41,148 nt of DNA from a virus: IMG/VR virus record IMGVR_UViG_3300005471_000030, positions 1-41,148 of that record; one strand, 5' to 3'. Shown piece after piece: positions 2,410-34,414 of the stretch (position 1 is the first letter of the stretch; every line of letters begins with the position of its first letter). The notes beneath the pieces are model-generated. The model made no database searches. It saw only the letters and a list, made by a program, of their open reading frames with translations, and was not told the DNA's origin. The translations under genes and the position numbers were made by a program.

Positions 2410-3207
2410 TTATCCGGTCACTACAAAGCAAGACTGACACAAGCGTGGGTATTCTCTGCGCGCAAATGCCAGGCGTCGCGTTTCCATTCGTTCCCATAAT
2501 TCAACGGGTGAATTTTGGTTCACATTGCCAATGATGTCATCAGCTTGCAAATCTTCACAGCACATTGGTACCGAACCGTCTGAAAGGATCGTGAACGTTT
2601 CCATCAGCGCGGTGCAATGGGTCACACCCTCGCGCGCGGGCAGAGGTTCATTTTTCATGCGTGCCCAGGCACGGATTTGAATGCCCTCAAAAATAACATT
2701 AGGGCAATCTGCAAAGTAATCACGAAGATATGGAGCAACAGAATCAGTACCCTTGCGAGCGTTGTAAATCTTGATTATCTTTGGACGGTGCAAAGATAAA
2801 GCCAATAACCTTACTTGCTCCGCGTGTTTTGTAAAATCAGACCCAACACGAATAGAATTATTCTCTTCAAATGTGTCACCATCAAAGCTAACTCGCAATT
2901 CGTCAACTTGCGAAAGGTCACGCTTGTTACTCAGTAGGGAGGCGTTTGTGTTGAAGGCAATCTTTTGCACGCCGCGCATTTTTGCATATTCAATCATGGC
3001 TTCGAGATATTTATTCAATAGTGGCTCACCACCATGATACAAAACCAATACACGCGGAACGAACGGCAACATCTCAAAATATTCCACAAATTTTTCATAG
3101 CGTAGAATCACTCGATGCCCGCCTTCTACGCCAATGGGGCAATGGCGACACTTGAAATTGCAAACGCCTGCGGGTTCGATGCGAACTACATCAGGAAAGT
3201 GTCTCAT
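2410..3207 (-). CDS. radical SAM enzyme with SPASM-like C-terminus
   Basis: A 265-residue protein. Cys16, Cys20 and Cys23 form the CxxxCxxC motif that binds the [4Fe-4S] cluster cleaving S-adenosylmethionine. A C-terminal Cys-rich stretch (MCCEDLQ ... GNVNQNSPVELW ... LCQSCF) matches the short SPASM/twitch region seen in peptide-modifying and some carbohydrate-modifying radical SAM enzymes. It overlaps by 17 nt a 55-residue gene and follows a methyltransferase and a DUF115-like protein. The four look like one accessory cassette inserted between capsid and connector genes. The substrate cannot be read from the sequence; a virion protein, a small peptide or a surface glycan are all possible. 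Confidence 0.85.
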   Translation of the reverse strand: MRHFPDVVRIEPAGVCNFKCRHCPIGVEGGHRVILRYEKFVEYFEMLPFVPRVLVLYHGGEPLLNKYLEAMIEYAKMRGVQKIAFNTNASLLSNKRDLSQVDELRVSFDGDTFEENNSIRVGSDFTKHAEQVRLLALSLHRPKIIKIYNARKGTDSVAPYLRDYFADCPNVIFEGIQIRAWARMKNEPLPAREGVTHCTALMETFTILSDGSVPMCCEDLQADDIIGNVNQNSPVELWERMETRRLAFARREYPRLCQSCFVVTG

Positions 3208-3355
3208 GATATTTTTTCAACAATTCAATTGCTAAATCAACCGCGGAACTTTCTTCAAAAGGTTTCTGAATATTTTCGTCTACTTCCTTTGGAAAAGTTT
3301 CACGCAAAAATTTTGCTAATCGAATAATCTCCAACTCAAAGTAATTTTCGTTCAC
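3191..3355 (-). CDS. 55-residue acidic protein next to the radical SAM gene
   Basis: I start this gene at GTG 3355, which overlaps the methyltransferase stop (GTGA) and has GAGG 5-6 nt upstream; an ATG at 3475 would run through the methyltransferase gene. The product is helical and charged (NENYFELEIIRLAKFLRE ... AIELLKKYHETLS). It lies directly before the radical SAM enzyme and overlaps it. In radical SAM systems a small protein here can be a substrate or a binding partner, but I see no core peptide pattern such as repeated Cys, Gly or Thr, so a role is only a guess. Confidence 0.6.
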   Translation of the reverse strand: MNENYFELEIIRLAKFLRETFPKEVDENIQKPFEESSAVDLAIELLKKYHETLS

Positions 3356-4041
3356 TTTTTCCTCGCGTAAATTTCCATTTGATTTCCGGGAAAGGCAAAC
3401 TTGCGATACCCCTCGACCATACTGAGTAAGAATTTCGAGAAGTCTGCAACTGGCCGCGCGTAGGGTGTGCCCCAATACGGATGCAACACTTCTATATTTT
3501 CAAACTCTAACCTACTGAGTATATTGGACAGAAAACGACTACCAAACAATATCCAATTGCGTGCGGGGTCGAGAGCTGGCAATTGTCCAAATAGTTTGTA
3601 AACCAAGCTGTCAATGTCGGGAGTTGCCAATATAACAAGTAGTCCTCCTGGTTTCAAAACTCGCGTGGCTTGCACAAGCGCGCGCATGGGGAAGTTGATG
3701 TGCTGCAGCGTGCCACGGAAAATCACCACATCGAAAAAAGCAAAATCCGCAGATTGAACATTTCTAAGCATCGTGATCCCCTTTGCGCGTGCTTTCTCCG
3801 CGGCAAAATCAGACGGTTCGAACCCGTACTTTTCCCAACGGTCATCGAAACAGGACAGAAACCCGCCAATACCACAACCAATATCTAGCACTTTGCCAAA
3901 CTGACAACGCTCTACAATGCGCTTATGCTCTTGCAAGTACATCTTTTCGCGTTGCCTGTCCAATAAGTAGTATTGGTCGAAATACTCCCGTTCATACAGG
4001 TTTGCGTCATCGGTAGGATTGAGGTTCGCAATGCTACTCAT
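3352..4041 (-). CDS. class I SAM-dependent methyltransferase
   Basis: Starting at ATG 4041 the product has 229 residues. Motif I, VLDIGCGIGGFL, binds S-adenosylmethionine. VVIFRGTLQHI and the post-motif RVLKPGGLLVILATP are typical of Methyltransf_11/12-type small-molecule or sugar methyltransferases. The first residues, NLYEREYFDQYY, resemble those of methyltransferases found in polysaccharide clusters. The frame is open for 72 more codons upstream, but those overlap the DUF115 gene in another frame, so I reject that extension. Two TACTSAGTA palindromes lie in its C-terminal part (3420-3428 and 3513-3521, read as LLSM and ILSR). Confidence 0.85.
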   Translation of the reverse strand: MSSIANLNPTDDANLYEREYFDQYYLLDRQREKMYLQEHKRIVERCQFGKVLDIGCGIGGFLSCFDDRWEKYGFEPSDFAAEKARAKGITMLRNVQSADFAFFDVVIFRGTLQHINFPMRALVQATRVLKPGGLLVILATPDIDSLVYKLFGQLPALDPARNWILFGSRFLSNILSRLEFENIEVLHPYWGTPYARPVADFSKFLLSMVEGYRKFAFPGNQMEIYARKK

Positions 4042-5056
4042 TGGGCAATGTCCTTCCAGTGAGCGCCAGCTTATCCTCCACGCGGATCCACTTTTCATCG
4101 TTCTGTGCCAGGACCATTTGCGCCATCCCGTTGTATTCCATGACCTTTTCAACACGGGATTGCCAGGAACGGCAATCAATATACTGGCCGTTGACAAACG
4201 CGTGATTGGCAATGGCTTGCTCGTACATGTTCTGGGCTTCTTCGTATTTTTGTGCAATTTTCATCAAATCATCTTGTGGGATGTTTGCCGTTTGTGCGTC
4301 AATGAATTCCTTTTGCACCGCGTCTACAATCCCGCGCGCCCGGTTATATTCTGAGTGGGTTTTGTCCATGAGCTGCTGCAACTCAGATGCACGCGCCTCG
4401 AATGCCTCACGATCCACTTTGGATGCATCCATTTCATAGCCATATAAAGGCGCATAGAAGATCATAGATTGCTCAGGAAGTACAACTTCAATGCCGCGCC
4501 CGATTGCAATGCCAAGCCACAAACCTATGCCGTCCCGCTGGTACACATACTCAGTATTGTTCTCCATTTCGATACCGTACATTTCGATGCGCGTATAGCC
4601 ATGAAAGATTGCCAGTGCAATTGCATAGCAGGGACCAGACGTAAAATATCTGTTGATCTGTTCGCCGCGCCTGAAATTGGGAAGCAGAGAACTAACAACA
4701 TCTTCCAATGGATAAACAATATTTCCCGGACAATCCGGTGTAATGTGCGGCGTGTAAAATTGGATTCCTTTTTTAGAATGTAGCCAAGTTCCAAAGGCTT
4801 TATCCTCTTGCGACCGTCTGAAAATATCCTCAGGAGGATGGATGTCAAATACCGCGTTTGCGCGCGGGCACCAGTCCATTGTGCTTTGTCCGTTGAAGAT
4901 CCAAATATCAACGTTCGGATCATGAAACGGTGCTTTCTCGCGTGTGATTGGATGCGTGCCCACAAGTGCAACAGTTTTATTTTGCATAATAATATTTGTC
5001 ATGATTGCAGGAGGCAGGGAGTAACCCCTACCTCGATTTCTATATCGCTTGCTCAT
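4034..5056 (-). CDS. DUF115 / MptE-like protein with coiled-coil C-terminus
   Basis: A 340-residue protein. Residues 25-190 resemble the DUF115 fold (6-hydroxymethylpterin pyrophosphokinase MptE-like): TVALVGTHPI, DIWIFNG, FTSGPCYAIALAIFHGYTRIEMYGIEM. This fold also occurs in glycosyltransferase-like motility accessory factors. Residues 215-300 are a charged helical coiled coil. ATG 5056 overlaps the preceding stop (ATGA). Together with the methyltransferase and radical SAM genes it suggests synthesis or transfer of a modified sugar or cofactor onto a virion or surface component. That role is inferred from the neighbourhood. Confidence 0.65.
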   Translation of the reverse strand: MSKRYRNRGRGYSLPPAIMTNIIMQNKTVALVGTHPITREKAPFHDPNVDIWIFNGQSTMDWCPRANAVFDIHPPEDIFRRSQEDKAFGTWLHSKKGIQFYTPHITPDCPGNIVYPLEDVVSSLLPNFRRGEQINRYFTSGPCYAIALAIFHGYTRIEMYGIEMENNTEYVYQRDGIGLWLGIAIGRGIEVVLPEQSMIFYAPLYGYEMDASKVDREAFEARASELQQLMDKTHSEYNRARGIVDAVQKEFIDAQTANIPQDDLMKIAQKYEEAQNMYEQAIANHAFVNGQYIDCRSWQSRVEKVMEYNGMAQMVLAQNDEKWIRVEDKLALTGRTLPNE

Positions 5057-5466
5057 GCCGCTCGAACGATTGGGAATGCGGCAACAGCCAGTGCAAAGTT
5101 ACTGCCGGAAGTTGCCTGCCCGGAGTTGTACAAAGCTCTCACATATCGCTTTGTCACAATGCCATATTTCTCAGACAGAGCACTCACACCATCTGTATTA
5201 GTGAATGCAACAGTGGAGCCATCGTAAGCCAGCACGTTGGTAAACGATGCGGTTGCAGTTGAATCACATTCCTGGATTGTCACATTGGCAACGAACCCGG
5301 TTGACGATGAGGGAGATTGCACAGAGGCAATTACGAACTTGATTTCCCGCTTGCCCACTGGAAAATAATTCGCAAGGTCAACCGCTGAACCTGCTGATGT
5401 CGAGGTTGCACTTGAGGCAATACTCAACGCAAGCAAGCTAACCATTAGGGTACTTCTGGAATTCAT
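5053..5466 (-). CDS. virion accessory protein after the capsid gene
   Basis: A 137-residue protein. It carries AVDLANYFPVGKREIKFVI, VANVTIQECDSTATASFTNV and KRYVRALYN, a beta-sandwich pattern I associate with small phage head or decoration proteins encoded next to the major capsid gene. The first 25 residues are Ser/Ala/Leu-rich, but without a good signal-peptide charge pattern I do not call it secreted. AAAGGAAAT lies before ATG 5466. A hairpin (5492-5513) separates it from the capsid gene. Confidence 0.6.
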   Translation of the reverse strand: MNSRSTLMVSLLALSIASSATSTSAGSAVDLANYFPVGKREIKFVIASVQSPSSSTGFVANVTIQECDSTATASFTNVLAYDGSTVAFTNTDGVSALSEKYGIVTKRYVRALYNSGQATSGSNFALAVAAFPIVRAA

Positions 5467-5491
5467 GTTTTATTTCCTTTCAGCATCTCGA

Positions 5492-5513
5492 CGGGTGAGC
5501 CGAAACCCACCCG
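5492..5513 (-). other. short hairpin between capsid and accessory gene
   Basis: CGGGTG (5492-5497) and CACCCG (5508-5513) form a perfect 6-bp stem. No T-run follows on the reverse strand, so it is more likely an RNA processing or stabilising hairpin behind the highly expressed capsid gene than a full terminator. Confidence 0.35.
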
Positions 5514-5535
5514 CCCTAAATCGCGCTGTGAAATA

Positions 5536-6954
5536 TTATGTACTTGAAAGAACCTTCATGCGCCAGTAGTGCACCAGGTCACCGCCAGTGCGCTTACGCA
5601 TATAGACAACCACTTGATCGCGCAACCCGTAGACCTCACGGAACACTTCCACCGAAAGACCAACGCGGTCAATGATGTAGTAACCTTTGAGATCGCCGAG
5701 CGCTGCATACTTGTTGGATGTTGCAGGGTTTGGCATGAACTGATTTTTTGCCAGTCCATAACCAAGCAGAGAGGGGGACATGCCGTTGGAATAGTTGGGG
5801 TACGCATCGCCAAGCGACCACTGAGGCAGAGTGGCAGTGCCAGCGTTGATAGAACGCAACGCGGCAAAGGTGGTTTTATTTGCATACCACTTGGCAAAGG
5901 TTTCGTACTGCATCGGCAGTTGCGCTTCCACGCCGATGATGCCCGTGGTTGTGCCACCCCATGCAATGGTAGTAGTACCGGAAAGGATTTGATTACCCCA
6001 GTAGGTCACACCAGCGACTACTGAGTAGGTGCTGTATGCGATTCCCATTGACGGGTGAGACAGGAAGCCGCGCGGCTGACCTGCGCCCGTTCCATTCGTG
6101 TACGCTGACTCTTCGCCAAGTGCGTAAGCTTCGGAACCCAACTCACTGATATACCCCATGACATCAAAGCTATTATCCTCAAGCTGTTCGCGGGTCATGA
6201 TGATTGCAGCGGTTGCCAGATGCACCGGAATACTGATCTGTCCGGCGATTGGGTTTGTTGCTTCAGAAATATCAGACGTTGACGTATTGGAACCGCGCCA
6301 ACTGAAACGCACACCGCTGGTAAACAAATTCGCGGACGCATCATCAACCGTGGAGCCGTTGTAATTCACACTTGGAAATGTAATGTGATCGGTACCGGTC
6401 GTGTATACACGCGCGTTAGGTCTAACCGTAGACATCGCTCCGATTTTCTTTACCAATTCAGGGCGATAATCAGGAGCAAGCCAGAAACCACCAGACGGGT
6501 CTGAACCTTCATTCAGTACCTTCATCGCGTCGCTCTTCATTGAACGACCTAAACCAGCGGAGCGGATGTAATCAGCCTGGGCATCCTTATATGCACCGGA
6601 TTTCAGCGCATCAAGTTTCTTTTGTCCCATACTTTTAAACTGACCAGGAACGGCATACATTTCACCAGTTTGCGGATCAACAGTTACACCGGGAATATCG
6701 CCTTCACCGGGCAGGGTTTCACGTCCAAAGGTCGCAGCGACTTGGGAGCCTTGCGATTCGTCACCATAACGCTTCAGTTCTTGCGCGGCGTTGTAACGAT
6801 CAATGTCTTTCGCCAATCGTTGACCTTCAGCAAGAAAAGTATCATAACTTTTCGTTTGATCTTCATTTGGAGTTTTATCTCCAATTTCGCCTTCGAGAGT
6901 CTTGATCTTTCCCAAAACATCATCGTAGGCTTTTCTAATTGCTTTTATATCCAT
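5536..6954 (-). CDS. major capsid protein (HK97 fold)
   Basis: A 472-residue protein. Residues 1-60 are a charged coiled coil (KTLEGEIGDK, AEGQRLAKDIDRY), the scaffold-like delta domain removed by the protease in HK97-type phages. The mature part begins near GSDPSGGFWLAPD and contains the usual HK97 capsid pattern (ISIPVHLATAAIIMTREQLEDN, ELGSEAYALGEESAYTNGTG, GQPRGFL). It sits directly after the protease gene, with a 10-nt gap. Its length is a little above the common 300-420 residues because of the delta domain. One TACTSAGTA copy (6019-6027) is read as TYSV. Confidence 0.93.
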   Translation of the reverse strand: MDIKAIRKAYDDVLGKIKTLEGEIGDKTPNEDQTKSYDTFLAEGQRLAKDIDRYNAAQELKRYGDESQGSQVAATFGRETLPGEGDIPGVTVDPQTGEMYAVPGQFKSMGQKKLDALKSGAYKDAQADYIRSAGLGRSMKSDAMKVLNEGSDPSGGFWLAPDYRPELVKKIGAMSTVRPNARVYTTGTDHITFPSVNYNGSTVDDASANLFTSGVRFSWRGSNTSTSDISEATNPIAGQISIPVHLATAAIIMTREQLEDNSFDVMGYISELGSEAYALGEESAYTNGTGAGQPRGFLSHPSMGIAYSTYSVVAGVTYWGNQILSGTTTIAWGGTTTGIIGVEAQLPMQYETFAKWYANKTTFAALRSINAGTATLPQWSLGDAYPNYSNGMSPSLLGYGLAKNQFMPNPATSNKYAALGDLKGYYIIDRVGLSVEVFREVYGLRDQVVVYMRKRTGGDLVHYWRMKVLSST

Positions 6955-25850: not shown

Positions 25851-26609
25851 CTACTGAGTAACTTTCTCCGCTTCCAATTTCGCGCGGACTTCTGCAACCT
25901 GCCCATTGGTGGGAATTTGTCCATCGTTGGCAGCCATGACTGCCTCAGCACCATACTGAGTAACCAGCTCCTGAAGCGGATCAATCACGGGAGTAGATGC
26001 AACATCCACCACATCGCCGCCTTCAGTAAGCGCAACGCCATACATTTCAGGTGCTTTCATAAGCGTTGTCATGCCCGCGGTGACATCCGGGAACACAACA
26101 TCAGCGGCAAAGCCTACCGCGCGCCACATGCACATATTTTCGGGATACTTTGCCCAACCGGAATCAGGTTTCACAAGTCCAGCCCGTTTTGCATCCTCAA
26201 GAGTAAATGCACCAACAAAACTGAAACCATTTTTGCGTGTCATGTGACAGCGATAACCAAGAAAGTTTTTCTTTTCATCGGTCATGCGTTCGACTTTGAT
26301 TTCCTCAACAAGAGGGCTACTGAGTAGGATTGCCATTGCGCCGCGCGGTGAAAGTGCGGGCTTCCCCTGAATGACTTGCACAAGTTCAAAACTTGCAGTC
26401 ATGGATAACCCTAATTCGTATCCCTTCAGCATAATTGCCTCTGCCTGTTCGATGCTGGTTACACCGAACAAATGGGATCGGTACATGGCCGGTGCCATCT
26501 TTTCAATCATGGCCCAAATGCCAGGGGTGAGTTCACGTGTGGCCGCGGTTGCGATTGCCAGTGGTGCGGCAATAGGTTCAATTGCAGTTGATTTATTTTT
26601 GGTTGCCAT
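25851..26609 (-). CDS. RecT-like single-strand annealing protein
   Basis: A 252-residue protein. IEQAEAIMLKGYELGLSMTASFELVQVIQGKPALSPRGAMAIL, followed by MTRKNGFSFVGAFTLEDAKRAGLVKPDSGWAKYPENMCMWRAVGFAADVVFPDV, is the core of a RecT-type recombinase family common in phages. It pairs homologous single strands during recombination and replication repair. An ERCC4-type nuclease gene precedes it, so the two may form the recombination module. Three TACTSAGTA copies lie in it; one (25852-25860) contains the stop codon. Confidence 0.8.
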   Translation of the reverse strand: MATKNKSTAIEPIAAPLAIATAATRELTPGIWAMIEKMAPAMYRSHLFGVTSIEQAEAIMLKGYELGLSMTASFELVQVIQGKPALSPRGAMAILLSSPLVEEIKVERMTDEKKNFLGYRCHMTRKNGFSFVGAFTLEDAKRAGLVKPDSGWAKYPENMCMWRAVGFAADVVFPDVTAGMTTLMKAPEMYGVALTEGGDVVDVASTPVIDPLQELVTQYGAEAVMAANDGQIPTNGQVAEVRAKLEAEKVTQ

Positions 26610-28862: not shown

Positions 28863-29147
28863 TTAGTTGAGTAAGAGCAATAATTCTGCTTTGGCTTTTT
28901 GCCACTCACCCCATGCTTCACGTGCAATCGCATCAAACAGTTGCGCCATAATGAACCACTGTTCAATTTCATCCTGTGGCATTTCTTCATCAATAGCCTC
29001 ACCGTACATGCGCCAGGCTTGCTCTTTTTGTGATCCAGCTTGTGCGTATTGGATCTGCCAATTCTCAATTTGCCATTGCAAAAACTTTGCCTGAGAGGTG
29101 TATTCAGGGAGGGTGGTTACGTAAGAGAGTGCAAGAGTGTTGCTCAT
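28863..29147 (-). CDS. hypothetical helical protein, 94 residues
   Basis: ATG 29147 overlaps the stop of the pentapeptide-repeat gene (ATGA). The product is Trp/Gln/Ala/Glu-rich and helical (SQAKFLQWQIENWQIQYAQAGSQKEQAWRMYGEAI ... AREAWGEWQKAKAELLLLLN), probably a two- or three-helix bundle. An 89-nt gap without a gene follows. Function unknown. Confidence 0.6.
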   Translation of the reverse strand: MSNTLALSYVTTLPEYTSQAKFLQWQIENWQIQYAQAGSQKEQAWRMYGEAIDEEMPQDEIEQWFIMAQLFDAIAREAWGEWQKAKAELLLLLN

Positions 29148-29776
29148 GAGTTGTAATTCTCCGCTTCGTACCGGGTGATGAAAAAATGCACACCAGATGA
29201 ACATTCTGCCCAACGGTTCTCGTCCCATTCGTTTGGTTTGATCGTCCCGCCGACTTTGTAGACAAAACTACTGTCGTAAGTGCTTGTGAAATCCTTGCGC
29301 GTGCGTTTGCCGTCGAAATCGAAATGACCTTTGTCGATGGCGTACTCGGCCCGGCACTTGCGGCCTGTGGCGTTGGAGCGTTTCGCTTTGGCAGGGATGA
29401 TGAGTTTTACGATCCCCTCGTTGCATTTCTTCCAGCCGATAATGTCGCCGTCTGGAATGATGCGCGTGATAGCGTCGGCTTGTTCAATGTTTTTGGCGTT
29501 GCTGAGATTGGCGCTTCTGAGATCGGCGTTGCTGAGATCGGCGCTTCTGAGATCGGCGCTTCTGAGATTGGCGCTTCTGAGATCGGCGTTGCTGAGATCG
29601 GCGCTTCTGAGATTGGCGCTTCTGAGATCGGCGTTGCTGAGATCGGCGCTTCTGAGATCGGCGTTGCTGAGATCGGCGCGCTCGCCGCCCTCCTCGCTGT
29701 ACAGCCATTTTCGATGTGCTTCTAAAATCTCGGATAATTGCTTACCGTTGATCGTGATGTCTTTAGGGTTTCTCAT
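29144..29776 (-). CDS. pentapeptide-repeat protein with DUF5758-like C-terminus
   Basis: From ATG 29776 (AAAGGTG 6 nt upstream) the product has 210 residues. Residues 34-95 are about twelve A(D/N)L(S/R)(N/S) pentapeptides that build a right-handed beta-helix. The C-terminal 100 residues (IIGWKKCNEGIVKLIIPAKAKRSNATGRKCRAEYA ... DSSFVYKVGGTIKPNEWDENRWAECSSGVHFFITRYEAE) match the domain I know as DUF5758 in phage proteins. Some repeat proteins mimic DNA and block gyrase, but this one is short and its function is open. Confidence 0.85.
   Translation of the reverse strand: MRNPKDITINGKQLSEILEAHRKWLYSEEGGERADLSNADLRSADLSNADLRSANLRSADLSNADLRSANLRSADLRSADLSNADLRSANLSNAKNIEQADAITRIIPDGDIIGWKKCNEGIVKLIIPAKAKRSNATGRKCRAEYAIDKGHFDFDGKRTRKDFTSTYDSSFVYKVGGTIKPNEWDENRWAECSSGVHFFITRYEAENYNS
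29496..29680. repeat. 15-bp tandem repeats coding pentapeptides
   Basis: Units of the type GCGCTTCTGAGATCG and GCGTTGCTGAGATCG alternate about twelve times with very few changes. Near-identity at the DNA level suggests recent expansion or contraction by slippage, so copy number may vary among relatives. Confidence 0.85.
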
Positions 29777-29821
29777 AATTGCACCTTTATTTTGGTAATC
29801 ATATACTTGACACACAAAGCA

Positions 29822-30263: not shown

Positions 30264-30722
30264 TTATTTTCGTCCTATCTTTTGCAGTTGCACATTAGTT
30301 GAGGCAATATCAATGGCTATGTCAACATCACCGTTGACAATTTGCGAACCTGCCAACGTAATGCCCATGCCGTGAGCCTGGAATGAATTTCGTACACGTT
30401 CGACAAAGCCGTCTGCATCACCGCGGATAATAAAAACAATTTCATCGCCAGAAAACCATAAACCAGTGAGCAACAGATCATCAGAACGAACCTGCAAAGC
30501 AGTGCGAATCTTCTCGTTGACGGTCTCGTAACCATACTGAGTATTGAGCTGGTGCATGTTATCAATGTCACCGAACACAACAAACTGTCCGTCGGTGGAT
30601 TTACGTTTCTCGATTTCAAATGCCGCACGTGTCAAAATTCCATACGGTGCATGGGTTTTGAGTTGTGCGTTTTCAGCACGCAACTTTTCATTTTCGGCTT
30701 GGAGTTGTTCGATAGTGGTCAT
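30264..30722 (-). CDS. GGDEF-like domain protein with N-terminal coiled coil
   Basis: A 152-residue protein. Residues 1-24 are a leucine-zipper-like coil (EQLQAENEKLRAENAQLKTH). Residues 26-135 follow the GGDEF pattern: PYGILTRAAFE as in DxLTGLxNRRxF, VVFGDIDNMHQLNTQYGYE as in the metal-binding DxDxFKxINDxxGH, and FSGDEIVFII (91-95) in place of GGDEF. Canonical enzymes make cyclic di-GMP as dimers. Here the first Gly is Ser and the Asp normally after GHxxG is Asn, so activity or base preference may differ. A phage-encoded signal nucleotide enzyme or a binding decoy are both possible. Confidence 0.75.
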   Translation of the reverse strand: MTTIEQLQAENEKLRAENAQLKTHAPYGILTRAAFEIEKRKSTDGQFVVFGDIDNMHQLNTQYGYETVNEKIRTALQVRSDDLLLTGLWFSGDEIVFIIRGDADGFVERVRNSFQAHGMGITLAGSQIVNGDVDIAIDIASTNVQLQKIGRK

Positions 30723-30931
30723 TTGGATTTTCCTAAATCGGGACGTACGAAAGCAAAATATGCTTTACCTAAAGTGGTTTCGGTAATGTCGTTTATAGGT
30801 GTGCCACATTCGGGACATTCAAGTTTCCCCACTCGCAATAATTCTTTGCCCGGAAAGACGTGTACTTGTGATCCTGTGCAAGCAAATACGTGTTTGACTT
30901 TTTGAGAGGTATTGAAGTTTTTTGGTTTCAT
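30719..30931 (-). CDS. hypothetical protein, 70 residues
   Basis: The product (MKPKNFNTSQKVKHVFACTGSQVHVFPGKELLRVGKLECPECGTPINDITETTLGKAYFAFVRPDLGKSK) has FACTGS and ECPECGTPI; three Cys may form part of a zinc ribbon. It overlaps both neighbours by 1-4 nt. Early region. Confidence 0.6.
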   Translation of the reverse strand: MKPKNFNTSQKVKHVFACTGSQVHVFPGKELLRVGKLECPECGTPINDITETTLGKAYFAFVRPDLGKSK

Positions 30932-31233
30932 TATTTCGTCTCACGTTTCGTACCCGCCGCCATTGCTTTTGTAAAGTGGGCTTTGGCATTGGCTATTACA
31001 TCCTGCTTGAAATTTGCCTCACGTTCTAAGATTTCTAATGCCGCCATACCATTCAGGATTTCATCAAAACTTTTGTACGGCAGTCTCAGCAGGTTTGCTT
31101 TCTCCAAATCTCGGACCCGGCGGGTTAGTTCCGAGATTTGTTTCTCTCGTCTATTCCATTCGTGCGAGAGGAGGAAAAGACAGGCGATTGAGAGAGCCAC
31201 GATAACGACAATTAGGAGTGAATTGCTAGCCAT
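30931..31233 (-). CDS. membrane-anchored coiled-coil protein, 100 residues
   Basis: From ATG 31233 the product starts with a span (SNSLLIVVIVALSIACLFLL), then a basic coiled coil (EWNRREKQISELTRRVRDLEKANLLRL) and a helical end. An upstream TTG at 31272 could extend it by 13 residues. The ribosome site is weak. Type II membrane proteins in the early region can mediate superinfection exclusion, but nothing here proves it. Confidence 0.55.
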   Translation of the reverse strand: MASNSLLIVVIVALSIACLFLLSHEWNRREKQISELTRRVRDLEKANLLRLPYKSFDEILNGMAALEILEREANFKQDVIANAKAHFTKAMAAGTKRETK

Positions 31234-31261
31234 AGGATTAGGAGCATCAGAATAAATAAGA

Positions 31262-31684
31262 TTACGATCCAAACCATTTTGTACCTACTTCATCACGTGT
31301 TACGTGCACACGATGATGACAACTTGAGCAAAGCCACTTCACGTCGAGACTATATTTTTTTTCATATCCTTTGTGATGATGTGCTTGCAACCTTGCTTTT
31401 CTTCCGCAGGTTTCGCAATATTCTGGTCTGGTTAGAATTCCTTTTTGAACTGCTTGACGAACTTGGACGTGAGCATTCTTTACATTAGGATTATTTTTTT
31501 GATATTGAATAACGTGTTTGATAATCCGTTCTCGATTCTCTTTGTATTGTTTTCTGCCGTGACTTGCTCTACATTCCTTGCAGTAAGACGCATAGTAGGA
31601 CTTTCCAAAAGCTCTCTGATAGGTTGTACTGAAACAGTCAATCGGTAAAAGTCTTTTGCACTTTCGGCAGGTTTTTTCGCTCAT
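31262..31684 (-). CDS. HNH endonuclease with zinc ribbon
   Basis: A 140-residue protein. CRKCKRLLP and YCKECRASHGRKQYKENRER form an N-terminal zinc-ribbon-like region; YCETCGRK, QAHHHKGYEKKYSLDVKWLCSSCHHRVH is the HNH core with paired Cys and His residues. It shares this order with the gene at 1672-2232 (also zinc-ribbon, basic helical middle, HNH), so both appear to come from one family of mobile HNH genes. It lies in the early operon, after the regulator. Confidence 0.8.
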   Translation of the reverse strand: MSEKTCRKCKRLLPIDCFSTTYQRAFGKSYYASYCKECRASHGRKQYKENRERIIKHVIQYQKNNPNVKNAHVQVRQAVQKGILTRPEYCETCGRKARLQAHHHKGYEKKYSLDVKWLCSSCHHRVHVTRDEVGTKWFGS

Positions 31685-32017: not shown

Positions 32018-32092
32018 TGTTGTCAGGTTCTTACAACCACAACTTTACTACAAGGTTTGTAACTTGTCAAGGGCTGACAACAGATTGTTGTC
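32018..32092. promoter_or_regulatory. operator region of the lysogeny switch
   Basis: The half-site TGTTGTC (or TTGTCA) recurs: TGTTGTC at 32018-32024, a dyad TTGTCA (32064-32069) with TGACAA (32075-32080), and a perfect 7-bp dyad GACAACA-GAT-TGTTGTC (32076-32092). These flank and cover the leftward -35 box and lie just before the repressor gene, as in cI/cro switches. TACTSAGTA does not occur here. Confidence 0.6.
32042..32070 (-). promoter_or_regulatory. early leftward promoter
   Basis: On the reverse strand the -35 box is TTGACA (32070-32065), the spacer 17 bp and the -10 box TAAAGT (32047-32042). It would drive the early operon beginning at 31980. The -35 box lies inside operator-like dyads, so repressor bound there would silence it. 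Confidence 0.65.
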
Positions 32093-32117
32093 CATCATTT
32101 CAGAAGATTATGACAAA

Positions 32118-32495
32118 ATGTTCGTAATTATGAACAATACGAAAGATAAGTTTTTATGGGTCGATTGGATAATTAAAGAACGTGAAAAACGGGGGATGAC
32201 ACAAGCGGACTTAGCGCGTGCAACAGGGCTACAACGTTCAACCGTATCTGATTACGAAAAACGGTTAAGAACAAAACCAGATGTTGAGGCTTTAGCAAAA
32301 ATATCAGAAGCACTTGGATACCCCGCTGAATATTTGCCCCGATTAGCTAATCAATTTCCTTATGCAATTGAAGTAGATGATGATACACAACAACTCATTT
32401 ACGAGACAAATGATCTAACGCCCCAAGAAAAAGAAGAAATCTTAGCTTTCATTCGCATGAAGAAAAACCTAAGGCAACGCAATGCACATAGATGA
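32118..32495 (+). CDS. XRE-family (cI-like) repressor
   Basis: From ATG 32118 (AGAAG 11 nt upstream) the product has 125 residues. Residues 27-48 (MTQADLARATGLQRSTVSDYEK) are the helix-turn-helix; the KISEALGYPAEYLPRL continuation is typical of XRE domains. A short acidic helical tail (TPQEKEEILAFIRMKKNL) may dimerise; there is no S24 peptidase part, so RecA-dependent self-cleavage is not expected. The gene is divergent to the early operon across the operator region. ATG 32130 is another possible start. Confidence 0.85.
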   Translation: MFVIMNNTKDKFLWVDWIIKEREKRGMTQADLARATGLQRSTVSDYEKRLRTKPDVEALAKISEALGYPAEYLPRLANQFPYAIEVDDDTQQLIYETNDLTPQEKEEILAFIRMKKNLRQRNAHR

Positions 32496-33337: not shown

Positions 33338-33378
33338 CTCCGGAGCCGAAGAGCACAGTTCGAGTCTGTGCAGGGGCG
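33338..33378 (+). other. candidate attP: 3' half of tRNA-Arg(CCG)
   Basis: CTCCGGA (33338-33344) has the form of an anticodon loop with anticodon CCG. It is followed by a 5-nt stem strand, a 4-nt variable region, a perfect T-arm (CACAG-TTCGAGT-CTGTG, 33354-33370) and an acceptor strand CAGGGGC with G at 33378. The 5' half (D-arm) is missing. Such tRNA 3' halves in phages restore the host gene after integration. It lies 85 nt before the integrase start. The mirrored CCCCTGCAC (33329-33337) on its left can pair with the acceptor strand region. Confidence 0.7.
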
Positions 33379-33463
33379 CACGTTGCACGGAATTCCTACC
33401 CCCATGTGGCAAATAAATGTATCAGGGTTGCACCAATTTCAAACGAAAGGTGTGTGCAATCTT

Positions 33464-34414
33464 ATGCAACTCGATAAAGCTATTGAAGGGTTTATTTTGG
33501 AAGCGCGCAGCGGAGCATATTCACCGGCATACATTCCTACAATTGAAAGCCAGTGCAAGCGCATTTGCAAATTTTTTGGCGAGAGAAATCTAGATGCACT
33601 CACGCTTGAAGATTGGAAGTCTTATTTTCGATACTTGCGCTTTGAATATGTGCCAGTGCGTTTCAATGGTGACACATCGCCATTGAGCGAAGCAACCATT
33701 GACAACCATTGGAAGATGATCAGAGCGTTTTACAACTGGGCGGTTGACACAACCATACTGAGTACCGAACGCCCAGATAAAAAGCTACCCCGTCCCAAGT
33801 ATCAATCTCCCGAAATCGTACCATTCACTACCGATGAAGTAAAACGCCTTATAGATGCCAGTCAAAGCACCTTGGTAGAAAAAGCCAACGGACGGAAATA
33901 CAAAATCCGCCGCCCTAATGCGGACCGAGATAAAAGCCTGTTGCTGATGTTGCTTGATACTGGTTTGCGAATTGGTGAGTTGCACCGATTGCGAATAGGA
34001 GATGTGAACCTTGAAAACGGGGAAGTGTATGTGCGAACTTTGCGCGATGGTAGGAAATCAGCCGCGCGGACAGTGTACCTTGGAGCACGGACCAAGCAAA
34101 TCATTTGGAAGTTTATTGCAAAACAACAAAGTGCCCCGGACCAATCACGGAAGCTGTTTGATTATAAATATACTTACTTGCGACATATTATTCGCCGCAT
34201 CGGTGCAAATGCCAACGTGCCACGAACCTACCCACATAGGTTTCGCCACACGTTTGCAATCTTCTATCTTCGCAATGGGGGAGATGTGTTTACGTTGCAA
34301 AGGTTACTAGGACACACCACTTTGGTAATGACGTTGAAGTATGTAAACTTCGTCAAAGCTGATTTAGAGCACGCTCATCGCCGCGCCTCGCCGGTGGATA
34401 TGTGGAAACTATAA
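33464..34414 (+). CDS. int: tyrosine-family integrase
   Basis: From ATG 33464 (GAAAGG about 13 nt upstream) the product has 316 residues; the longer frame from GTG 33368 would run through attP. The N-terminal part is a SAM-like core-binding domain (FGERNLDALTLEDWKSYFRYL). The catalytic part has LLDTGLRIGELHRLRIGDVNL (first Arg), PHRFRHTFAIFYLRNGG (HxxR and His), LLGHTTLVMTLKYVNF (His and Tyr). It integrates the phage into the host tRNA gene. It faces the tail fibre gene, with the two stop codons adjacent. One TACTSAGTA copy is read as ILST. Confidence 0.93.
   Translation: MQLDKAIEGFILEARSGAYSPAYIPTIESQCKRICKFFGERNLDALTLEDWKSYFRYLRFEYVPVRFNGDTSPLSEATIDNHWKMIRAFYNWAVDTTILSTERPDKKLPRPKYQSPEIVPFTTDEVKRLIDASQSTLVEKANGRKYKIRRPNADRDKSLLLMLLDTGLRIGELHRLRIGDVNLENGEVYVRTLRDGRKSAARTVYLGARTKQIIWKFIAKQQSAPDQSRKLFDYKYTYLRHIIRRIGANANVPRTYPHRFRHTFAIFYLRNGGDVFTLQRLLGHTTLVMTLKYVNFVKADLEHAHRRASPVDMWKL

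Follow-up and report, generated by a model that had tools for sequence, protein, structure and literature searches.

A compact, zipper-bearing GGDEF protein of a temperate phage as a candidate minimal cyclic-dinucleotide cyclase

The window analysed here (the whole stretch of DNA, a 41,148-bp tailed-phage record) encodes a compact protein, P0001, which belongs to the GGDEF superfamily both by fold and by homology. P0001 is one of a family of 26 sequences that further comprises nine other phage sequences, one cyanobacterial plasmid copy and 15 bacterial copies. With confidence just above even, we read it as a constitutive, dimeric, feedback-free minimal cyclic-dinucleotide cyclase that would most likely make c-di-GMP. 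We file it in the GGDEF superfamily and not as a diguanylate cyclase, because it departs from the GG(D/E)EF motif and at one guanine contact, and because its activity is a prediction.

Results

P0001 lies in the putative early region of a temperate phage

The P0001 gene (30264..30722, minus strand) encodes 152 aa from an ATG at 30722 to a stop codon ending at 30264, and its assignment draws on the ORF together with family and fold evidence. Its start codon overlaps, in an ATGA, the stop of the gene directly upstream, which encodes a 70-aa Cys-containing protein (30719..30931, minus strand; zinc-ribbon-like by eye, sub-threshold match to PF22747, E 0.0064), so that the two genes are probably translationally coupled. 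The same run holds a 113-aa protein in which a single hydrophobic N-terminal stretch and a coil can be recognised by eye (30931..31272, minus strand; no match in Pfam or PHROG searches), and an HNH/endonuclease VII-like protein is encoded further upstream (31262..31684, minus strand; PHROG 2340, E 1.1e-20). A divergent HTH repressor-like gene (32064..32495, plus strand; PHROG 8, E 1.7e-16) is followed by a tyrosine integrase gene (33368..34414, plus strand; PHROG 1, E 1.1e-44), which indicates a temperate phage. A RecT-like annealing protein lies further down the strand that carries P0001, in the early/recombination region (25851..26609, minus strand; PHROG 4171, E 1.3e-10). Since a minus-strand run near the repressor is a usual location of early genes, P0001 is putatively expressed early. 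PADLOC left it unmatched. Relatives of the window's terminase were present in 39 viral loci, and none of these matched P0001 (0/39) or PF00990 (0/39), which is weak evidence because many of the loci are short fragments. Distant terminase matches occurred in 2 of 396 genomes of the class of the Anaerolineae family member.

Elsewhere in the window, a radical SAM/SPASM gene (2410-3207, minus strand) shares 33% identity over 104 aa with a huge-phage fusion protein described below (L081). Along with a methyltransferase and an unmatched 340-aa ORF it occupies positions 2410-5056 (minus strand), near ORFs that look virion-like by eye, and these genes are possible modification cargo. Pentapeptide-repeat-like proteins are encoded near the GGDEF gene in two phages (window 29144-29815 and L090:7349-7747, both minus strand; 39% over 106 aa), a similarity that may be due to chance because such repeats are alike everywhere.

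P0001 has a predicted GGDEF fold and belongs to a divergent subfamily

Taken alone, P0001 scores below the curated cut-offs of PF00990 (E 0.047, 13.9 bits, cut-off 23.8) and TIGR00254 (E 4.8e-4, 19.9 bits, cut-off 37.4), which are database thresholds and not biological traits. Searched against the PDB, the family profile matched 28 sequences at E <= 1, all of them named as GGDEF, diguanylate-cyclase, response-regulator, motility-regulator or uncharacterised proteins, with SadC as the best match (4wxo, 9e-8). Comparison of the family with seven canonical GGDEFs by hhalign gave a probability of 99.4 (E 1.2e-21), and 16 of the 17 members in alignment A3 matched PF00990, as did 16 of 17 for TIGR00254 (E <= 1). 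The AlphaFold2 model, built with 16 relatives in the alignment, is a GGDEF fold (pLDDT 91.3, pTM 0.83) with helices at residues 4-22, 32-39, 56-63, 65-75, 103-116 and 133-151 and strands at 47-53, 83-88, 94-99 and 121-127. Foldseek returned GGDEF/cyclase entries for 50 of 50 PDB matches listed, the best among them being 3i5c, a GCN4 zipper-WspR GGDEF fusion (E 1.0e-9); VIA-align aligned up to 151 residues, N-terminal helix included, at Z of about 14-16.6. Among BFVD models the best fold matches were phage GGDEF proteins, with those of SP-15, phage G and CN1 within the first five, matched by fold only at 14-17% identity. Profile, hhalign and model thus all agree with the initial annotation, which had proposed a GGDEF-like core and had named a predicted fold other than palm/GGDEF as grounds for giving it up.

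The same annotation had pointed to Cas10-type polymerases as relatives, and this part is not supported. The Cas10 palm PF22335 matched one of ten phage members, weakly (E 0.0027), versus nine of ten for PF00990. No mCpol-named sequence occurred among the PDB matches of the family profile, and there was no Cas10 or mCpol entry among the 50 PDB fold matches listed, which excludes nothing. Kinship of P0001 with Cas10 or mCpol is not supported.

A single genome-contig scan returned eight loci, seven of them true relatives, from MAGs titled Gemmatimonas, Latescibacterota (two), Handelsmanbacteria, Planctomycetota (two, from one MAG) and Anaerolineae. The eighth, L049, shared only a coiled coil, looked MreC-like by eye and was dropped. 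The title Gemmatimonas phototrophica of the L042 record seems wrong; its genome falls in the phylum group of the Latescibacterota members, with synteny at about 80-90% protein identity. When profiles of these relatives were searched in the phylum of the Latescibacterota member, 12 of 64 genomes carried the family (the MAG titled Gemmatimonas included). In the phylum of the planctomycete member it was 1 of 392, which has three copies; in the class of the Anaerolineae member two of 396 were matched, one of them through a canonical PAS-GGDEF-like protein (E 5e-13).

Profile scans of viral sequences recovered family members in L050, L085 and L088-L094; counted with the huge-phage module described below, the search for phage homologues suggested at the outset ended with nine other phage sequences of the same subfamily. 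The first viral match recurred as L080, L084 and L087, L086 is the same as L085 and L091 repeats L090; each was counted once. Other queries added no relatives: P0001 alone had no match in viral contigs, its single weak match in 50,697 phage records (E 0.9) was an ordinary multidomain GGDEF and was rejected, and no relatives emerged from viral scans with the Latescibacterota form or with a huge-phage domain (LR756501.1), or from tblastn of two phage family members against the phage collection. The A3 profile matched the bacterial members, the window copy and L050 at E 1e-50 or better and the later phage members at 5e-64 to 2e-23. For the partly masked copy L077, which entered neither the tree nor the residue counts, the value was 4e-25, and for the huge-phage domain 2e-22; canonical GGDEFs reached no better than 7e-13. 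Across alignment A8, identity to the window copy is 22-41%. The huge-phage domain stands at the start of a 488-aa protein of the 735-kb phage LR756501.1, where a single ORF (L081:1971-3437) joins it to a radical SAM domain (PF04055, E 6.1e-23); LR756503.1 has the same length and the same match. The plasmid member is WP_017286805.1 of Leptolyngbya boryana pLBA (35% identity to phage L089, E 6e-23).

The surroundings of the relatives are varied. In a planctomycete MAG, a degenerate copy directly precedes an intact one (L046:5377-6522). The Anaerolineae member lies a few bases from a canonical GGDEF with a ribbon-helix-helix tail (L048:5986-7166; PF12651, E 1.4e-6), possibly a cyclase with a DNA-binding end. 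Another Planctomycetota member sits among HTH, IrrE-type peptidase, ParB, DnaN and reverse-transcriptase genes (L047:1359-7271), a region that is likely a mobile element. On a 112-kb viral contig, a eukaryotic-type topoisomerase I gene (L086:1785-3503; PF02919, E 4e-63) lies just upstream of the GGDEF gene, with an array of small genes following. In L089 (7803-9394) the end of the GGDEF gene and the first 4 bases of a Rad52/22-like gene coincide, again a link to recombination genes. The terminase large subunit of L094 (4098-6788, minus strand) contains an intein-like LAGLIDADG homing-endonuclease insert.

The gene looks like a single travelling gene, with purifying selection in relatives

In a tree of 33 rows (the 26 family rows and seven canonical GGDEFs), the canonical sequences split from the family with support 100/98, and L050 is the partner of the window copy (98/95). 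L085 is placed among bacterial copies and L088-L094 group with the Leptolyngbya plasmid copy (91/89); deeper branching is unsure because several branches are long. When gene content was compared among L050, L086, L088-L090, L092-L094, L081 and the window, the GGDEF gene was the only one common to most pairs, with as exceptions the near-syntenic L092/L093, one gene of L090/L094, the pentapeptide-repeat similarity and the radical SAM similarity. This pattern suggests a single gene that travels by itself and not a component of one phage lineage. Purifying selection acts on family members: the phage pair L092/L093 has dN 0.083 and dS 0.444, and the six pairs among L042-L045 have dN 0.065-0.115 and dS 0.36-0.82.

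Most catalytic residues are kept in an altered active site

Residue counts were taken on the 26 family rows (two of the seven canonical rows in that alignment went unscored) and on canonical GGDEFs from the Anaerolineae member's class. The latter set came from 30 loci and gave 25 GGDEFs (24 loci) for coil counts and 21 for residue counts, four being omitted because of what stands at the catalytic Asp (Glu in three, Asp-Ile-Asn in one). The catalytic Asp of strand 1 is kept in 25 of 26 family rows and is Ser in the degenerate planctomycete copy; in P0001 it is D52, at the start of DIDNMHQLN (residues 52-60, 30543..30569, minus strand), placed by alignment and hhalign. The base-contact position at +8 is Asn in 21 rows (N60 in P0001), Asp in four and Arg in the degenerate copy. 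The second base contact, at +17, is Asn in 12 rows, Asp in 13 and Ser in one; P0001 has N69, at the end of the segment G64-N69 (30516..30533, minus strand). In the canonical enzymes the same three positions read Asp, Asn and Asp in 21 of 21. The altered guanine-contact position noticed in the initial annotation is thus real, and since 25 of the 26 members have either Asn or Asp there, it is a feature of the family and not a lesion. MAFFT and HMMER alignments placed a 3-residue gap at GHxxGD, as though the base-contact Asp had been lost by deletion. We rejected this, for hhalign, the +17 spacing and the point where the helix begins in a canonical model all put N69 at the position; the shortening falls later in helix 2, beyond N69.

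The hairpin WFSGDE (residues 89-94, 30441..30458, minus strand; loop 89-93 in the model) carries the acids D93 and E94. SGDE is found in 25 of 26 family rows, and the SGDEI signature originally reported is present as S91-I95. D52 and D93 supply the metal-binding acids of P0001. The two catalytic acids are 41 residues apart in P0001, 40-43 in the family and 43-44 in the canonical rows. Lys148 (30279..30281, minus strand) shows conservation of at least 90% over 25 members and is paired by hhalign with a Lys that canonical enzymes conserve in their last helix, and YGILTR (residues 27-32, 30627..30644, minus strand) aligns with canonical DxLTxLxNR, its R32 being invariant in 25 aligned members. 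In PleD numbering the matching positions are D327, N335, D344, K332 and K442, with N69 standing at D344 and Lys148 at K442.

Several features set P0001 apart from canonical enzymes. His57 (+5) replaces a Lys found in all 21 scored canonical enzymes, Leu88 stands at a position that is Arg in at least 90% of 25 members, H24 replaces the hinge Asp and S91 the first Gly of the motif. The family hairpin is one residue longer (R-W-F-SGDE versus R-x-GGDE in the MAFFT and HMMER alignments), and helix 2 has 11 residues in the P0001 model versus 16 in the canonical one. The longer hairpin and shorter helix could alter or abolish the reaction. As to S91, PMC3974145 reports the SGDEF enzyme ECA3270 as active and shows activity for the AGDEF enzyme VCA0965, where Ser at the first motif position abolished it; of these two enzymes, one thus tolerates a first-position Ser and the other does not.

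The coil core occupies an activated position and P0001 has no RxxD site

The leucine zipper first proposed from the letters of the gene (residues 4-22, 30657..30713, minus strand) was recovered in the model as a helix over 4-22; it is GCN4-like, with a/d residues at 4-21 (a = I4, N11, N18; d = L7, L14, L21). Relative to H24, the counterpart of the Asp in DxLT, this core occupies positions -20, -17, -13, -10, -6 and -3, and the offset recurs across the 26 family rows: L/I/V/M/F is found at -3 in 25 of 26 and at -6 in 24, versus one at -4 and three at -7. The 25 canonical GGDEFs use the other phase, with L/I/V/M/F at -7 in 23, -11 in 16, -4 in 13 and -3 in two. Work on DgcR (PMC8041772) distinguishes two coil registers, the native one using d and the activated one e, with e at -3 before DxLT in WspR; it also reports high activity for a GCN4-GGDEF WspR whose interface adopts the active register. 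The family coil therefore uses a position specific to the activated state and not the inactive one, and we infer that it is fixed on the active side. Its agreement with the active state is incomplete, since -3, -10 and -17 are in common but -6 and -13 replace -7 and -14. In L089, L090 and L094 a hydrophobic N-terminal stretch, seen by eye, takes the place of the zipper.

The RxxD inhibitory site is missing from P0001 (DDLL) and from nine of ten phage members, the window copy included. It is kept in 15 of 26 family members, versus 18 of 21 canonical enzymes, and lack of feedback is therefore not a family trait.

Discussion

A proposed minimal cyclase and its alternatives

Building on the gene, fold, family, conserved residues, coil phase and missing RxxD established with the tools above, we propose that a short parallel leucine zipper would hold two copies of P0001 together, that each GGDEF module would bind one purine nucleoside triphosphate through D52, D93, N60, N69 and K148, and that the two modules would link these into a cyclic dinucleotide, with c-di-GMP as the most likely product. 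With its zipper core on the activated position and RxxD absent, such an enzyme would be on whenever expressed and would not be limited by its product. Presumably made with the early phage genes, it may raise the level of the host signal during infection or after prophage induction. The cyclase reading draws on the GGDEF fold, 3i5c as top match, the -3 coil core, the kept catalytic residues, purifying selection, the existence of active SGDEF and AGDEF enzymes and the early-gene position. Counting against it are the departures at 24, 57, 69, 88 and 91 and the altered hairpin, as well as the partial register match and the inactivity of VCA0965 with Ser at the motif's first position (PMC3974145).

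The departures N69, H57, L88 and H24 would be at home in a non-catalytic GGDEF that binds a nucleotide or cyclic dinucleotide, or that partners a host cyclase through its zipper and domain face, acting as receptor, sponge or dominant-negative. Two bacterial arrangements speak for a partner model in those bacteria: in L046 the degenerate copy (5377-5946; ANDG hairpin, catalytic Asp to Ser) adjoins the intact copy (5962-6522), and in L048 the family member lies, as partners might, just before the canonical GGDEF. However, both the window copy and nearly all its relatives retain the metal acids, the base-contact Asn and the C-terminal Lys, none of which a pure binder would need, and the window copy lacks RxxD, the c-di-GMP-binding site of many degenerate GGDEFs. 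We hold a non-catalytic role for P0001 to be unlikely, while giving it real weight.

That P0001 makes a different product, be it cGAMP, c-di-AMP or some further dinucleotide, and serves phage-defence conflict and not c-di-GMP lifestyle control, strikes us as rather improbable. The appeal of this reading lies in the Asn/Asp/Ser variation at the second base contact. In PMC6456294, Asn339 and Ser348 of a Hypr enzyme contact the base where canonical enzymes have Asp at 348, Ser at 348 is linked to purine promiscuity and S348D drives GTP specificity; the nine-residue spacing of N60 and N69 equals that of Asn339 and Ser348. PMC12657218 further describes mCpol enzymes that select the base through Ser/Asn. 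Set against this, P0001 keeps the other guanine contact, Asn60, and has neither Ser nor Thr at 69, and Pfam and PHROG searches recognised no defence-type effector among its neighbours. The caution of the initial annotation, which had left the choice of nucleotide open, seems well placed.

A broader version, which we consider a long shot, would see phage-dispersed, always-on minimal cyclases with products that differ by member according to the base-contact Asn, Asp or Ser. These might flood or replace the host cyclic-dinucleotide pool, for example quieting signal-guarded defences such as Panoptes while phage sponges deplete defence signals, in addition to a push towards sessility. That the fold serves protein contacts only, as scaffold or regulator with relic catalytic residues, would suit a small, free-standing protein beside other small phage proteins, but is very improbable given that, across such divergent members, few positions are as conserved as the catalytic ones. 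Finally, the low scores of P0001 taken alone against curated models might suggest a chance ORF, an idea already refuted by the family, with a phage relative at 41% identity, a coherent profile, a confident fold and purifying selection in relatives.

As a rule, GGDEF cyclases are joined to sensor or receiver domains, which keep them inactive until a signal arrives. The subfamily of P0001 appears to have dropped these domains, with a short zipper or membrane helix attached to the catalytic module instead, much like the engineered hyperactive WspR, and it has spread through phages that have little else in common in the stretches compared. If the preferred cyclase reading is right and the proteins are active, phages carry ready-made signal generators, P0001 would offer a very small natural scaffold for coil-phase switching of a GGDEF module, and the natural Asn/Asp/Ser variation would permit a clean test of how the product is set by the base-contact residue. 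The radical SAM fusion of the 735-kb phage hints at further uses.

Comparison with known systems

GGDEF proteins are already known in phages and mobile elements, and the compact zipper-fused subfamily is little described: we found no description of it in the open-access literature, the available part of PMC7824862 included. The view that P0001 is unusual in a phage needs correcting, as it is no one-off, considering its phage relatives, the GGDEF-type proteins of Bacillus phages SP-15 and G (gp350) and Bordetella phage CN1, which were matched to P0001 by fold, and the Mu-like virus carrying a DGC in PMC7785012. On mobile elements more generally, dgcK/dgcL of SXT/R391 (PMC10672970) likewise make a c-di-GMP enzyme the cargo, there of Vibrio elements and genomic islands. 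The Leptolyngbya boryana pLBA 'diguanylate cyclase' is of the same subfamily, plasmid-borne and with Ser at the base contact.

Among small stand-alone palm-domain cyclases, mCpol/OptS of Panoptes resembles P0001 in format, and PMC12657218 and PMC12657230 show that such enzymes can be defence parts. By their description mCpol is set apart from P0001 by a nearly absent GGDEF linear motif, a D6-D57 spacing and pairing with a 2TM-beta effector. Pfam and PHROG gave no match to such an effector among the neighbours of P0001, one of which has, by eye, a single hydrophobic stretch. The Hypr GGDEF GacA (PMC6456294) shares with P0001 an altered Watson-Crick base contact and a kept sugar-face Asn, but it has Ser at that contact in a Rec-GGDEF architecture, while P0001 has N69 where the Hypr class has Ser/Thr. 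With PleD, WspR, SadC, DgcR and DosC, P0001 has in common the fold, the catalytic Asp, the hairpin acids, the Asn and the C-terminal Lys; relative to these canonical cyclases it has an extra hairpin residue, a shorter helix 2 and a coil core one residue closer to the domain. The engineered diguanylate cyclase 3i5c, the GCN4-WspR fusion, has its zipper helix directly before the GGDEF module, as P0001 does; P0001 differs from it in being natural, 152 aa long and of SGDEI signature, with a shorter domain, Asn for the base-contact Asp and no RxxD.
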